The notes under the pieces are model-generated. The model ran no database searches and was not told where the DNA came from. It saw only the letters and a program-made list of their open reading frames with translations. From a virus, in IMG/VR virus record IMGVR_UViG_3300042523_001055, positions 1-29,403 of that record: a stretch of DNA of 29,403 nucleotides, one strand, 5' to 3'. Position 1 is the first letter of the stretch. Each line of letters starts with the position of its first letter. This document shows positions 1,990 to 21,589 of this stretch, piece after piece. The translations under genes were made by a program, and so were the position numbers.

Positions 1990-2045
1990 ATTGCTGATTT
2001 TCATTAGTTTACAAAAATCTTCATCGTACGTCATTTTGTAAATTG
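1985..2045 (+). promoter_or_regulatory. Operator-like repeats before the small regulator gene
   Basis: TGTAAATTG occurs at 1985-1993 and again at 2037-2045, and TTTACAAAA at 2008-2016 is the reverse complement of TTTTGTAAA at 2034-2042 (9-bp arms). The region is AT-rich compared with its surroundings and sits just upstream of a helix-turn-helix gene, so autoregulation is a reasonable guess. TTGACG at 2043-2048 could be a -35 box, but I see no convincing -10. Confidence 0.5.
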
Positions 2046-2092
2046 ACGACCGACAGCTTGTCGTGCAACTTAACCCCATCGGACCCAACGCC

Positions 2093-7387: not shown

Positions 7388-9658
7388 ATGGCCTCCAAAC
7401 CGACCGTCGATGCGGAAGCAATCGACTCGCACCTTCGTCTGCTCTTCGGGGACGCCCCCGAAGGGTACGTGTGCCTGCGTGGCATCGGCGAGAAGGGCAC
7501 CGAACGCGAAGGCATCTTCCGCGAAGACATCTTCCTGGAGCCGAAGCACCTCGGCTGGCGTCGCTTCTCGATGTCCGTCGCCTTCCACGCGACCCGCTGG
7601 GGACAGCACCAGGTCGCCACCTTCATCGTGCCTTGCACGTTAAGGGAGGCTCGCGGCACCGCCGAGAACTGCGACGTCTTCCGCACCGTGTGCGCCGACT
7701 TCGACACCGGCGACACCGACGCCAAGCTCGCGTTCGTCGAGAAGGAATTCGGAAAGCCATCGATGATCGTCCTGTCGGGCGGCACCACCGAAGAGGGCAA
7801 GCCCAAGCGTCACGTCTACTGGAGCATCTCCGGACTGGAGGTCGCTCACGTCGTCTCCGTGCGTGACTACATCGCCCGCAAGGCGGGAGCCGACATCCAG
7901 TTCGGCCTAGGCGTGGACGGCAACCCCTACGGTCGAGCGCACCAGCCCATCCGTCTGGCCGGCTCCATCCACGGCAAGTCGGGCGTCACCCGACTCGTCA
8001 CGATCGAGAAGCACGACCCCGAGGCGTTCATCTCCGACCCGTACGCCTGCTCGGTCCGTATGCCCGACAGCCCCTGGGCCATCAAGGAGGAGGTCGCCAA
8101 GCTCGGGGCTATGTTCAAGCCCGAGAGCGGTGCCATCGCCGCCCTGACCACGGACGTGTCGGCGGGAGCCGATGCCGGCGAGACTCGCTGGTCCGCCTTC
8201 ACCCGCGTAGCGGGTCACTACCTCCACGTAGCCCGTAAGGGAGACATGTCCCTGGACGAAGCCAGACAGGCCACCAACGGCTGGATGCTCGCCCATATGG
8301 ACCCGCCTTGGCCCGAAGCCAGGTTCAACAACGAGTGGACCGGCCTGCTCCGTAAGGACATCTCCAGCCACGGCCCGATGCCCGAGCCCGAGAAGCCCAT
8401 CCTCCAGGAAGGCCAGGGCCTCGCCGTGTGGGGCGCCCACCGTTGGTCCCTCGAAACCCCTCCGACCCGCCAGTTCCTCGTCAGCAAGCTGATCCTGGCT
8501 GGCAAGCACCACCTGCTCGTCGCCGAAGGCGGAGCCGGCAAGACCTTCCTGATGCTGGACCTGGCCCTCAAGGTCGCCGGCAACAAGGAGGGCGATACCT
8601 GGGGTGGTATGCCCGTGCTTCGCAAGGGGCCCGTCGTCATCCTGACGACCGAGGACGACAAGGACGAACTGCACATCCGCCTCCACGATATGGACCCCCA
8701 GGGCGAACGCCGTAAGGCGGCAGGCGACGACCTGATCATCCTGCCCACCATCAACTCCGGCGGTGCTTTCCCCCTCGTCGAGAAGGACCCCCGCACCCAG
8801 GAGGCCCGCGCCTCCCGCAAATGGCTTGAGTTCTTCAACCTTCTGAAGAACATCAAAGACCTACAACTGGTGGTTATTGACACTCTTAACAGCGTTCTTC
8901 ACGGGGAGGAAAATTCCGCCACCGTCATCAACGAGTTCATCCGCGTGGCCTCTCAAATCTGCGGTGACCTCGGAGCCACCCTCATCGTCGTACACCACAT
9001 CCGCAAGCAAGGCGACGAACCCATCCGCAACGCGGAGCAGATGAAGGCCGCGATCCGAGGCTCGTCCGCCCTGCCGTCGGCCTTCCGCTGTAACATCGGC
9101 GTCTGGCACTGCTCCGACTACGACCGCCGGATGAAGGCCCTCAAGATGACCCCCAAGAAGGGCGCCCTCTGGAAGCTCGCGGTCATCAAGGCCAATAACC
9201 CCGAGATGTTCGACGGCGAACGTACGCTCCTGCGTACGGAGTCCGGCCTGCTCACGGACGTCACCGACCGCGACAAGTTCAACGACATCAACTATATGGA
9301 GCGTCAGGCTTGGATGCTCGCCGCGATCACCCTGGCGTCCAGGAAGGGCCACCCCTACTCCATCGAAGGCAAGAACGCCAAGTCGGGCCTGTACCGCCGG
9401 CGTGGCGAACTCCCTCCCAACCTGCGGAACATCGGCCCAGGCGAGTTCGCCCACGTCGTGGACGAGATGCTCATGTCCAAGGCCATCGTCGCAGCAGCAG
9501 CCAAGGGCGGTAAGGACAAGAAGTGGCTCGACATCCCCAACGGTCCCATCGCCACCGACGAAGTCGGGGCGGAAATCAGCTCCGGTGCCTACGAGCCCCC
9601 CGACTGGGAGACCTACGCGTACGACAAGGACGCGCGCATCATCATCAAGATCATATGA
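7388..9658 (+). CDS. Prim-pol primase fused to a RepA/KaiC-type helicase
   Basis: 756 residues. The N-terminal half carries an archaeo-eukaryotic-primase-like pattern: CADFDTGD at 102-109 (metal-binding acidic pair), SGG at 130-132 and RHVYW with His142, then RLAGSIHGK. The C-terminal half has Walker A AEGGAGKT at 379-386 and Walker B LVVIDTLNS at 494-502, with TTEDDKDE between them, as in RepA/AAA_25 hexameric helicases. It would prime and unwind DNA at phage replication forks. No DNA polymerase gene is present in the window. Its stop overlaps the next ATG (ATGA). Confidence 0.8.
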   Translation: MASKPTVDAEAIDSHLRLLFGDAPEGYVCLRGIGEKGTEREGIFREDIFLEPKHLGWRRFSMSVAFHATRWGQHQVATFIVPCTLREARGTAENCDVFRTVCADFDTGDTDAKLAFVEKEFGKPSMIVLSGGTTEEGKPKRHVYWSISGLEVAHVVSVRDYIARKAGADIQFGLGVDGNPYGRAHQPIRLAGSIHGKSGVTRLVTIEKHDPEAFISDPYACSVRMPDSPWAIKEEVAKLGAMFKPESGAIAALTTDVSAGADAGETRWSAFTRVAGHYLHVARKGDMSLDEARQATNGWMLAHMDPPWPEARFNNEWTGLLRKDISSHGPMPEPEKPILQEGQGLAVWGAHRWSLETPPTRQFLVSKLILAGKHHLLVAEGGAGKTFLMLDLALKVAGNKEGDTWGGMPVLRKGPVVILTTEDDKDELHIRLHDMDPQGERRKAAGDDLIILPTINSGGAFPLVEKDPRTQEARASRKWLEFFNLLKNIKDLQLVVIDTLNSVLHGEENSATVINEFIRVASQICGDLGATLIVVHHIRKQGDEPIRNAEQMKAAIRGSSALPSAFRCNIGVWHCSDYDRRMKALKMTPKKGALWKLAVIKANNPEMFDGERTLLRTESGLLTDVTDRDKFNDINYMERQAWMLAAITLASRKGHPYSIEGKNAKSGLYRRRGELPPNLRNIGPGEFAHVVDEMLMSKAIVAAAAKGGKDKKWLDIPNGPIATDEVGAEISSGAYEPPDWETYAYDKDARIIIKII

Positions 9659-9849
9659 GCAACCGACCTATTATCAGAATGGCAGACGACGGCAGGGACA
9701 ACCTCTCGTTATGGGAAAGATGCCGTCTGATAGTAGAGGCGGGGATCAAGAAGTACGGCGATTCCGGCGGCCTCCCCATCTCGGGGACAGGCCGTGCCCG
9801 GAAGCCAAAGAAAAAGAATGAGAAAAAGAAGGTTGCCAAGAAGAAGTAG
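9655..9849 (+). CDS. Small basic protein (64 aa)
   Basis: ATG 9655 overlaps the primase-helicase stop. The first half (LSLWERCRLIVEAGIKKYG) looks helical; the last twenty residues are almost all lysine (for example KKKNEKKKVAKKK). Such a tail suggests nucleic-acid binding, for example as a helicase accessory factor. No family recognised. Confidence 0.55.
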   Translation: MSNRPIIRMADDGRDNLSLWERCRLIVEAGIKKYGDSGGLPISGTGRARKPKKKNEKKKVAKKK

Positions 9850-9881
9850 CTCTGAAACGGTCGGTGTCCCAACCCACCGAT

Positions 9882-10070
9882 ATGAAATACATCAAACCAT
9901 CCGCCGTGCGTAAGGCCGTCAAAGAAGCGGGCAAACGCACGTCCAAAGAATACCTGGAGGCACTCGACCGCTACGTCGAACGTGCCGTCCTCCGCGCCCT
10001 CGCCGAACACAACGGCGGGAAACTCACGATCGACGCCTGCGTCGCCGGTCACACCCTCGGCAACCGATGA
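9882..10070 (+). CDS. Histone-fold-like small DNA-binding protein (62 aa)
   Basis: ATG 9882 is chosen because it carries the CCCAACCCACCGAT leader seen at other starts; an upstream GTG at 9864 is also in frame. The sequence KPSAVRKAVKEAGKRTSKEY, then EALDRYVERAVLRALAE, then HNGGKLTIDACVAG follows the short helix - loop - long helix - loop - short helix layout of histone folds. It resembles archaeal HMf proteins at the first helix (RxxKxAG), at RxS, and at the HxGxKTI-like second loop. The central helix is about six residues shorter than in HMf. It may compact or mark phage DNA. Its stop overlaps the transglycosylase start. Confidence 0.55.
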   Translation: MKYIKPSAVRKAVKEAGKRTSKEYLEALDRYVERAVLRALAEHNGGKLTIDACVAGHTLGNR

Positions 10071-10507
10071 CCTCCGCCCTGGCTGTGCTGGCGGCTTTCG
10101 TCGCCCCCGAAGTCCCCGAGAAGTGGGTGGACGCCGTCGAGATCATCGAGTCCGGCGGTCGTGGTGCCCTCACCCCTCCGGGGGACCGGGGTGCCGCGAT
10201 TGGCCCGTTCCAGTTCTGGAAGCGGGCTTGGGAAGATACCACCCTCCTGCGTGAGCAGATGAAACTCAAGACCTTCCCCTACTGGCGGGCCAACGAGCCC
10301 AAGATCGCGCGCCAGTATGCCAAGACCTGGCTCTCCCACCTGATGATGAGGCTCACCGACAAGCTCCACCGCACCCCCACCGCCGGCGAGACCTGGCTGG
10401 CTTACAATATGGGGATGACCGGCTTCGGGCTCTACGACTACGACATCCGCAAGGTCCCCGCCCACAAGCGGTCCAAGGCCCTCGCCATCCAGAACGCAGT
10501 CCAGTGA
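10067..10507 (+). CDS. Lytic transglycosylase-like endolysin
   Basis: 146 residues. IIESGG with the likely catalytic Glu28, then AAIGPFQFWKRAW at 44-56, and LAYNMGMTGFG at 111-121 match the E-SGG, G-(I/P)-Q and AYN motifs of the lysozyme-like SLT fold. It would cleave the glycan strands of peptidoglycan. The first twelve residues are moderately hydrophobic (TSALAVLAAFVA), which could be a weak signal-anchor, though Pro and Glu follow closely. It lies among replication and packaging genes, about 8 kb from the holin; a virion-associated or lysis role are both possible. The end overlaps the next GTG (GTGA). Confidence 0.7.
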   Translation: MTSALAVLAAFVAPEVPEKWVDAVEIIESGGRGALTPPGDRGAAIGPFQFWKRAWEDTTLLREQMKLKTFPYWRANEPKIARQYAKTWLSHLMMRLTDKLHRTPTAGETWLAYNMGMTGFGLYDYDIRKVPAHKRSKALAIQNAVQ

Positions 10508-10965
10508 CCGACATCTACGAAAGCATCATCCAGTCCCCGCTCATCGCCTTCAAGGGCGAGCGGGGCTCGATGCGCGGTGCCGTCTCCTTCCGTGGGCACA
10601 AGATGTTCCACTCCACCGCCGTCCGCCTCGCCCAGATGCGTCCCATCCTGGAAGAGATGAACGCCAAGGGGATGACCCTGCGGAAGGCTTGCAGGAAGCT
10701 AGGCTACTCCAAGCCCTGCGTCTACGGCTGGCTCAAGATCCTCGGCATCCGCTGGCGGACCTCCGAGAAGGGCCAGGGCAAGAAACTCGTCAAGACCGGC
10801 TGGCACGACGCGATCGTAGCCGGCGCGAAGGCGGGTAAGACCCTGGAACAGGTAGCCGACTCCCTGGGCGGGGTCCACCTCCAGAACATCCACCGGTTCT
10901 GCAAGACCAACGGCATCGACTGGAAAGCTCTCAAGAAGAAACACGATGAAGAAACAAACCGATAA
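10504..10965 (+). CDS. Double helix-turn-helix protein
   Basis: 153 residues from GTG 10504. Two helix-turn-helix-like segments are seen: TLRKACRKLGYSKPCVYGWL (about residues 59-78) and TLEQVADSLGGVHLQNIHRF (about 118-137), each followed by GI.W, so it looks like an internal duplication. It directly precedes and overlaps the small terminase gene and may be a regulator or a DNA-recognition partner in packaging. Function not established. Confidence 0.6.
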   Translation: MTDIYESIIQSPLIAFKGERGSMRGAVSFRGHKMFHSTAVRLAQMRPILEEMNAKGMTLRKACRKLGYSKPCVYGWLKILGIRWRTSEKGQGKKLVKTGWHDAIVAGAKAGKTLEQVADSLGGVHLQNIHRFCKTNGIDWKALKKKHDEETNR

Positions 10966-11521
10966 GGACCAATGGAAGGGCGGACTCATCGTCCGTCACG
11001 ACCGCGAAGGCTTCGTCACCGAGCAACAGATGATGTTCGTCGAAGCCTACGTCGCCAATGGCGGTAACGCCAAGGCTGCTGCCCTCGCCGTAGGCTACGA
11101 CGGCAACTCCGCCTCCGACCTCATCAAGAACCATAAGGTCCGCGAGGCCATCGAAATCTACCGCGACACGGAGATCAAGACCAAGGGCGCCACCAAGGCT
11201 TGGGCCGTGATGAACCGCCTCCTCGACGACCCGGCCACCCCGGCCCAGGTGCAGTTCCAAGCTGCCCGCTGGACGCTGGAGGCGTCGGGCCACGGCCTCT
11301 CCGCCGTAGCCGCCGCCCTGGCGGTCGGCAACCGAGGCAAGAAAGACCTCCACGATATGTCCGTCTCCGAACTCCAGGAGATCGCGGACAAGGCCAAGAC
11401 CTGGCTCGACTCGATGAAGACCGTGGTTGCCACCGGCATCGAGGTATCCAAAGCTATCGACCTTCCCCCCAACGACAATGAACGAACCGATCCACGACCC
11501 GACAGTAACCCTGCGCCTTGA
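10946..11521 (+). CDS. terS: Terminase small subunit
   Basis: 191 residues. FVEAYVANGGNAKAAALAVG at about residues 30-49 is the N-terminal helix-turn-helix of the Terminase_2 type (FV..Y...GN...AA..AGY). The middle contains a dimerising helical part (TPAQVQFQAARWTLEASG), and the C-terminus is disordered and Pro/Asp-rich. It recognises phage DNA for packaging and loads the large subunit. Unusually, the large subunit gene is 10 kb away (21589-23190) beyond two minus-strand operons. The last 44 bases overlap the next gene. Confidence 0.75.
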   Translation: MKKQTDKDQWKGGLIVRHDREGFVTEQQMMFVEAYVANGGNAKAAALAVGYDGNSASDLIKNHKVREAIEIYRDTEIKTKGATKAWAVMNRLLDDPATPAQVQFQAARWTLEASGHGLSAVAAALAVGNRGKKDLHDMSVSELQEIADKAKTWLDSMKTVVATGIEVSKAIDLPPNDNERTDPRPDSNPAP

Positions 11522-20052: not shown

Positions 20053-20081
20053 TCTTGCTTATAAACACCAATTGGTACACT
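20053..20081 (+). promoter_or_regulatory. Putative promoter of the virion operon, nearly leaderless
   Basis: TCTTGC (20053-20058) and TACACT (20076-20081) are 17 bp apart. The expected start of transcription, near 20088, is within about two bases of the ATG at 20090, leaving no room for a Shine-Dalgarno sequence. The -35 is weak. Confidence 0.45.
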
Positions 20082-20089
20082 ATCCGCAC

Positions 20090-21589
20090 ATGAGTCAGCC
20101 TCCTGCTCCATACGACCGCTCTTGGTCCTTCACGGATTTCAGCCAAAGCAACCCCACTACGCCTCACCAGGGGCAGAAAATCGACCAGGAGCTGAACAAT
20201 GTGCAGGATTCGCTCAACGACACCATCTCCCGGCTGGGTGAAATCCAAGCCGACGATGGTTTTGTGCGTACGACCGCTCTAAATCTCCCTGCCATCGCCG
20301 AGGAAGTTGAACCGTTGCTGACGGACGCCCCTGTTCAAGCCGTTGAGGCTGCCGGCGCGCAGCAGGTTGGACTGGTAAACGACGCTGGTGATGCGAAAGT
20401 GGCTGAACTTGAAGCAGTTCTGTCGTCCCAGAACGCCATCGACGCGATTAATGCGCGAGATGACGCTGAAATTGCCAAGGACATCGCTGAATCTTCGGCG
20501 ATTCTCGCCCAAGGCTACGCTGGCACGGCGCAAGGCTACGCCAACACCGCATTACAGGCAAAAAACTCCGCCCAAGTCCACGCCCAAGTGGCGGTTGACG
20601 CTGCCGCGAGCATTCCTGTTATCCAAGGTCCGCCTGGTCCGCAAGGCCAGCAGGGCAATCCTGGGGTTGCCGGCCAGCAGGGTATCCAAGGTATCCAAGG
20701 CGTCCCAGGTCCGGCTGGATCTGACGCCAATGTCACGTCCACCAATGTCACGAACGCCCTCGGCTACACGCCGGCGAACCGTGCTGGTGACACCTTCACC
20801 AATAAGGTCAACTTTACCTCCGTTGGTGGCGCGGCTGGACTGAACGTAGGAATCGGTGGAAGTTCTGCCAGCGCAACCGTCAACGGAGACATTTGGATCC
20901 CGACCGCTGGCACGAATCTCAACTTCCGAGACGGCAACGGCATCGCCAGGGTTTGCGCTTCTACCACTTCTGGCAATACCTTCAATCAGCCCCAGATCGT
21001 CGATACGAGCAACACTCTCCCGGCCTTGCGCGTCACGCAGCGCGGAACCGGAAACGCCCTTGTCGTAGAAGACAGCACGTCACCGGATGCGACTCCAACG
21101 ATCATTGACGCCGCTGGCAACGTGGCGATTGGAGCGGCAGACTCAAATGGTTACAAGTTGCGAGTGAACGGATCGGCTCAATTCTCTTCTGTTCTCTCTA
21201 CTGTAATTTCTACTTCGTCCATAACTTTGAACGGACAAAGCATCGGCCAGGCTGTTGCTGGATTTCTGTTTGGCAGCGGAGATGTGCTTTACTCTGGAAA
21301 CAAAGACATAGACGCAAGCATCAGTTACTTTGATGGTACTGACTGGTTTTATTCCGGAAACTCGGACAGCAATGGAAACACCATTGGTACGCCATCCATC
21401 GGGTATACTCCGTATGACATCACTTGGAACCTAGCATCAAGCTCGTTTGTCGTAACCGACGGCACAAGTCAGTACGATCCAAGCGGAACGCAGGTCGGAG
21501 ATACATTCTACACCAACATGCAAGGAACCGTAACCGTCTACTCCGACGGAGCCGGCGGAGTTACCTACAGCCCTCCTAGCCAAGCCTAA
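20090..21589 (+). CDS. Tail fibre protein with collagen-like segment
   Basis: 499 residues. The N-terminus YDRSWSFTDFSQSNPTTPHQ and DQELNNVQDSLNDTISRL resembles the tail-attachment domain of podovirus fibres. A helical region (about 110-175) leads into a collagen-like stretch of about ten Gly-X-Y triplets (180-210; QGPPGPQGQQGNPG). Next come ALGYTPANRAGDTF and YKLRVNGSAQFSS, both common in phage fibre shafts. The C-terminal 130 residues, Tyr/Ser/Gly-rich, are probably the receptor-binding tip. ATG 20090 is preferred over the upstream TTG at 20072. The stop overlaps the terminase start. Confidence 0.75.
   Translation: MSQPPAPYDRSWSFTDFSQSNPTTPHQGQKIDQELNNVQDSLNDTISRLGEIQADDGFVRTTALNLPAIAEEVEPLLTDAPVQAVEAAGAQQVGLVNDAGDAKVAELEAVLSSQNAIDAINARDDAEIAKDIAESSAILAQGYAGTAQGYANTALQAKNSAQVHAQVAVDAAASIPVIQGPPGPQGQQGNPGVAGQQGIQGIQGVPGPAGSDANVTSTNVTNALGYTPANRAGDTFTNKVNFTSVGGAAGLNVGIGGSSASATVNGDIWIPTAGTNLNFRDGNGIARVCASTTSGNTFNQPQIVDTSNTLPALRVTQRGTGNALVVEDSTSPDATPTIIDAAGNVAIGAADSNGYKLRVNGSAQFSSVLSTVISTSSITLNGQSIGQAVAGFLFGSGDVLYSGNKDIDASISYFDGTDWFYSGNSDSNGNTIGTPSIGYTPYDITWNLASSSFVVTDGTSQYDPSGTQVGDTFYTNMQGTVTVYSDGAGGVTYSPPSQA

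Follow-up and report, generated by a model that had tools for sequence, protein, structure and literature searches.

A family of predicted minimal alpha3-type histones in uncultured phages

A 62-residue protein encoded in a 29,403-base virus record (the whole stretch of DNA analysed here, called the window) almost certainly adopts a histone fold, as judged from structure prediction. The evidence supports its assignment as a minimal alpha3-type histone, nearest in both sequence and structure to the bacterial histones HBb and HLp and to HTkC of Thermococcus kodakarensis.

A conserved gene

The gene occupies 9882..10070 on the + strand, from an ATG at 9882 to a TGA at 10068-10070 that overlaps the next ATG, at 10067. 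The sequence of the product is MKYIKPSAVRKAVKEAGKRTSKEYLEALDRYVERAVLRALAEHNGGKLTIDACVAGHTLGNR. Iterated searches found homologues in 28 IMG/VR phage contigs besides the window, with 47-81% identity and lengths of 62-70 aa. An alignment of 23 rows (A5), whose members are 47-79% identical to the window protein, served for the structure model and for the conservation counts; each of its members carries a net charge of +6 to +10. The ratio dN/dS is about 0.03-0.35 in diverged pairs; of the 14 pairs compared, the 12 with measurable divergence lie at 0.04-0.34. Given the homologues, their common length, the low dN/dS and the basic charge, the family is real, basic and under purifying selection. The open reading frame, placed by an earlier note on this DNA exactly where we find it and with the same product length, is thereby confirmed as a genuine conserved gene and no chance frame. 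A 7-bp hairpin (9860..9881, + strand, z -2.6) lies immediately 5' of the start codon; inspection of the relatives' upstream regions by eye showed none there.

Predicted fold and structure matches

AlphaFold2 modelled the monomer with a pLDDT of 78 from 12 sequences and of 92.4 from 23, the five models of the latter run all lying at 91-92. The predicted topology is helix-loop-helix-loop-helix, with helices at residues 6-15, 22-41 and 52-59, so that the histone fold proposed in the earlier note is present in the predicted monomer. The top seven Foldseek matches in the PDB were HLp, four HBb chains, HTkC and HLp again (probability 0.96-1.00, E 0.14-0.73). All seven are alpha3-type histones, ranks 1-12 are all histone folds, and the lower rows are mostly other histone folds (SAGA and TFIID subunits, an Asgard histone, H4). 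VIA-align gave Z 7.0 for HBb (8fvx; 2.2 A over 60 residues), 6.6 for HLp, 6.3 for HTkC and 5.0 for HMfB; the alpha3-histone matches span Z 6.3-7.0 at rmsd 1.7-2.2 A over 55-60 residues, and the best rows are nearly all histone folds, with every Z below 8. The modest E values and Z scores reflect the tiny size of the domain. Despite them, the weight of this model-based evidence lies in the unanimity of the match lists and the coverage of the whole chain. The parallel with archaeal HMf drawn earlier was sound as to histone likeness and missed the nearest kin, which are HBb, HLp and HTkC.

Independent sequence evidence

Searched against all PDB sequences, a profile built from 12 members matched HTkC (E 8e-4) and HBb (E 0.07-0.08), each as a single near full-length stretch; these are the best single-stretch PDB matches of the family profile. 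The matched HTkC structure, 9f2c, is described in PMC11390915 as a face-to-face alpha3 histone. A profile built from members lacking a TAL-like peptide matched HTkC and then SPT6 only, and the SPT6 matches (E about 1) were disregarded. With hhalign, the family scored 95% against the HTkC segment and a weak 11% against the HBb segment alone. A reversed-sequence profile, used as negative control, matched no histone. Against the Pfam histone model PF00808 (CBFD_NFYB_HMF) the family stays below the curated cut-off.

Several other matches were set aside. Those to TAL effectors (E down to 2e-8) are sums over repeats of a 14-residue piece, AIASHDGGKQALE, and were rejected because they are absent when the profile is built from members whose loop differs. 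A Pfam match to MlaC (E 0.19, or 0.014 with a GTG start) is far short of the cut-off and absent from relatives. PHROG 10190, annotated 'DNA binding protein', was matched by 6 of the 12 members (best E 0.016), which is suggestive and was left out of the case.

DNA-contact and interface residues

Residues were mapped onto HBb by hand alignment. In the modelled helix alpha1 (residues 6-15; 9897..9926, + strand), R10, K11 and K14 fall at HBb K12, K13 and K16. Loop 1 carries an invariant K18-R19 (9933..9938, + strand), and R19 corresponds to the arginine that nucleosomal histones and HTkC have in this loop and that points into the minor groove (PMC13260811). The central helix alpha2 (residues 22-41; 9945..10004, + strand), delimited from the model and from conservation, contains the invariant L28 and the hydrophobic V32. 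Conservation in the 23 members defines the loop 2 motif H43-N-G-G-K-L-T-I-D51 (10008..10034, + strand), which is followed by the modelled helix alpha3 (residues 52-59; 10035..10058, + strand), whose terminal residues have low confidence. Seven positions are invariant in all 23 members (K18, R19, L28, H43, N44, T49 and D51), and positions 10 and 47 are Lys or Arg in every one, with Arg at 47 in a single member. By the hand alignment, the hydrophobic V9, L28 and V32 coincide with the HBb dimer contacts V11, L31 and I35 (PMC11317129), and T49 coincides with T53 of the HBb KT motif. The basic residues of alpha1, the loop-1 arginine and the K-x-T of loop 2 are the DNA-contact places of histones, and the family retains them.

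The motifs singled out in the earlier note are all present: AVRKAVKEAG in alpha1, R19-T-S21 before the central helix and HNGGKLTI in loop 2. Loop 2 of HMf reads H-A-G-R-K-T-I. The parallel drawn between the two loops is not quite exact, the phage stretch being one residue longer from H to T, and L48 is atypical, 19 of the 23 members having Lys or Arg at this position. The central helix is indeed shorter, as had been supposed, with residues 22-41 in the model. In alpha3 histones alpha2 is shortened and alpha3 has just 3-4 residues, as described by Schwab et al. 2024 (PMC11390915); here alpha2 has 20 residues, and the modelled alpha3 has 8, with a low-confidence end.

Two features of other histones are missing. 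(i) The R-D clamp, an Arg and an Asp seven residues on, is invariable in archaeal histones (PMC13260811). Its aspartate is absent from all 23 members, which have V, L or I at position 54 (V54 in the window). An invariant KxTxD stands in its place, with D51 four residues after K47; D51 could cap alpha3 or make a shorter clamp. Since the clamp shapes loop 2 in DNA-binding histones, the DNA-binding loop pair could therefore differ here. (ii) The Arg and Asn that form the face-to-face interface at the end of alpha2 were not found at the aligned places, which fall on A41 and G45, give or take one residue. The invariant H43-N44 lies close to these places.

Distribution

A scan of 84,980 prokaryotic species genomes for exact peptide patterns yielded no true homologue and one false match; such patterns cover close relatives, while distant cellular ones could escape. 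The false match (L038) is an endonuclease III, named by eye, that carries the same short peptide, and was rejected. No homologue of the gene was found in the isolate phages and plasmids searched; matches to Escherichia and Vibrio phages did not rise above chance. The family is known so far from uncultured phages only. Searching viral contigs with the HTkC segment retrieved no relative, and therefore no intermediate between cellular and phage forms was found.

Among BFVD models, A0A6J5QYV5 and A0A6J5MS37 (uncultured Caudovirales phage; 58% and 55% identity) belong to the same family by fold and sequence and are recorded merely as uncharacterised proteins. Two longer viral proteins, A0A516LIY4 (139 aa, 28% identity) and A0A516M1G1 (99 aa, 23% identity), contain an alpha3-histone-like stretch, and are perhaps two-domain phage histones of the kind known from the literature.

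Genomic setting and mobility

By PHROG matches, the window phage encodes Sak4, a helicase, a Cas4-type exonuclease, a primase-helicase, RusA, a terminase small subunit and a portal protein. Its large terminase and capsid proteins have 49% and 45% identity to those of Microcystis phage Mae-Yong1326-1, a Rhizobium phage coming next. Just before the large terminase gene lies a likely tail-fibre gene (20072-21589, + strand), with collagen-like G-x-y repeats recognised by eye. Searches of the window for tRNA genes and Rfam families found none. Upstream of the histone gene are the primase-helicase (7388..9658, + strand; PHROG 906 and 239) and, just before the histone gene, a 64-aa ORF with a lysine-rich tail, GRARKPKKKNEKKKVAKKK (9655..9849, + strand), of which no homologue was found in the syntenic relatives. 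Downstream are a transglycosylase-like gene (10067..10507, + strand), whose start overlaps the histone stop as ATGA, the terminase small subunit (10946..11521, + strand; PHROG match) and RusA. The earlier description of this region as a replication block is a fair one.

The position of the histone gene varies among syntenic phages. Four contigs (L006, L007, L011 and L012) have the same order of primase-helicase, transglycosylase, terminase small subunit and RusA as the window. In these the histone gene is absent from the interval that separates primase and transglycosylase, and lies past RusA on the opposite strand. Another four (L049, L050, L054 and L055) share a different part of the backbone with the window at 56-91% protein identity. 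Their histone gene is 50% identical, runs in the opposite direction and is flanked by the orthologues of two window genes, 1663-1989 and 2063-2383; in the window this site is the about 73 bases at 1990..2062 (unstranded). Other members adjoin exonuclease VIII and O-like initiator genes, primases or Erf annealing proteins. The neighbours are replication and recombination genes in most phages, and several members are without annotatable neighbours. In 10 of the 23 members a TTGAC lies in the 100 nt before the gene, against 1.85 expected; this comparison is indicative only, as it rests on mononucleotide shuffles and on sequences that are related to one another. No promoter was found upstream of the histone gene in the window. 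From the varying sites in syntenic phages, the mostly replication and recombination setting and the frequent TTGAC, the gene behaves as a mobile accessory cassette, and the pattern is one of an accessory gene expressed with or near early DNA-handling genes.

An inverted repeat of 8-9 bp brackets the histone gene in seven loci (L002, L010, L043, L045, L046, L047 and L052), with one arm at the start codon and the other behind a G/C hairpin, 23-32 bases past the stop. Between subgroups the arms vary (TCCCGATG, TCCCGCATA and TCCGCAAAA) with complementarity kept, and no matching pair was seen in other parts of those loci; RNA-level control and cassette ends are both possible functions. In one contig a PAPS reductase gene lies close to the histone gene (L040:7454-8329).

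Proposed role

We consider it probable that the protein is a dimeric nucleoid protein of the phage that acts early and without sequence specificity, which explains the observations best. The minimal alpha3 histone would most likely form a homodimer through its central helices and grip double-stranded DNA without sequence specificity, by way of the alpha1 Lys and Arg residues, K18-R19 of loop 1 and K47-x-T49 of loop 2. HBb bends DNA and HLp wraps it, and by analogy the phage histone may bend or coat DNA. Homodimerisation with sequence-independent DNA binding is likely on the same analogy. As a mobile accessory gene found mostly among replication and recombination genes, it is most likely expressed early, and the protein would then organise or protect phage DNA in the cell, taking no part in the capsid; replicating or recombining phage DNA is its presumable substrate.

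An accessory, mobile, moron-like gene with a frequent upstream TTGAC and a basic product would also suit an early histone that coats host DNA, displacing nucleoid proteins or damping host transcription. The mostly replication and recombination neighbours point at least equally to phage DNA, however, and no feature is specific for host DNA, so we regard such a host-takeover role as rather unlikely. Use of the fold as a sequence-specific regulator or protein adaptor of the NF-Y or TAF kind, not as an architectural protein, we judge less probable again: the missing R-D clamp and a specific contact that the invariant H43-N44 and D51 could make would fit it, and TAF and NF-Y subunit structures match too, but more weakly, the closest structures being DNA-binding histones, whose contact positions the family retains. 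Histones do pack DNA in some eukaryotic viruses, according to work cited in PMC13088155, and the small basic protein of the window, whose gene lies near that of the terminase small subunit, might likewise be packaged with the genome as in some giant viruses; yet the gene lies outside the head and tail block at every locus examined, and its site is unrelated from one phage to another even where the backbone is shared. Because the histone gene stands apart from the head genes, packaging in the virion is less likely, and we hold it to be very improbable. There is scarcely any chance that the protein is a generic three-helix one whose model resembles histones by accident, even though small helical domains score middling in structure searches and TAL-effector repeats match 14 residues, for the sequence profile and the structure search single out the same small set of proteins, HBb and HTkC align over almost the full chain, the reversed control is negative and the TAL matches are short-repeat sums.

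A further speculation, which we regard as rather unlikely, is that phage-only minimal histones, with KxTxD for the universal R-D clamp and spread between phages as self-contained cassettes, form a virus-encoded bacterial 'chromatin' that hides replicating phage DNA from host nucleases or defence.

Bacterial histones proved functional only recently. Phage histones have been known from predictions and are of a two-domain type, while here a single-domain family occurs in many unrelated phages, which suggests that some phages use a histone of their own to handle DNA within the infected cell. The 62-residue protein offers a direct handle on whether phages make their own chromatin. The family lets one ask how the absence of the R-D clamp bears on DNA binding, and raises the question whether phages helped histones to move between lineages.

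Comparison with known histones

With HBb (Bd0055), the dimer histone of Bdellovibrio bacteriovorus (8fvx, 8cmp, 9ezz, 9f0e), the phage protein has in common the whole-chain fold, a similar length, the alpha1 Lys/Arg pattern and the hydrophobic dimer-contact places. It differs in having K47/V54 where HBb has the clamp R51/D58, an arginine in loop 1 where HBb has N, and two modelled turns of alpha3 against one; and HBb is bacterial, whereas the family is phage-borne. HTkC (9f2c) shares the aligned pattern VKxFxK...R(V/T)SxEF..AL...V....A...GKxT, but its clamp aspartate (RxTxxxxD) and its face-to-face interface R/N are absent at the aligned places of the phage protein. HLp of Leptospira perolatii (9qt0) is the top Foldseek match (probability 1.00, TM 0.73-0.79) at 20% identity; the tetramer and DNA wrapping are features of HLp.

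The 'phage histones' of Schwab et al. 2024 (PMC11390915; e.g. A0A2E7QIQ9) are, like the family, phage-borne and of the alpha3-type fold. As that paper presents them, they are without the RxTxxxD motif and retain two lysines at DNA-contact places, and they have a C-terminal helical domain and are predicted to tetramerise and bridge DNA. The family is single-domain and has no C-terminal tetramerisation helix, all 23 aligned members ending 10-20 residues past loop 2. The earlier view that single-domain histones of phages are little described thus needs qualifying: phage histones are on record in PMC11390915, with another domain architecture. We found no description of a single-domain, clamp-less, phage-only family in the literature, though the supplementary lists of PMC11390915 may include members. 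Bacterial alpha3 histones and phage histones being already known, it is such a family that appears to be previously undescribed.
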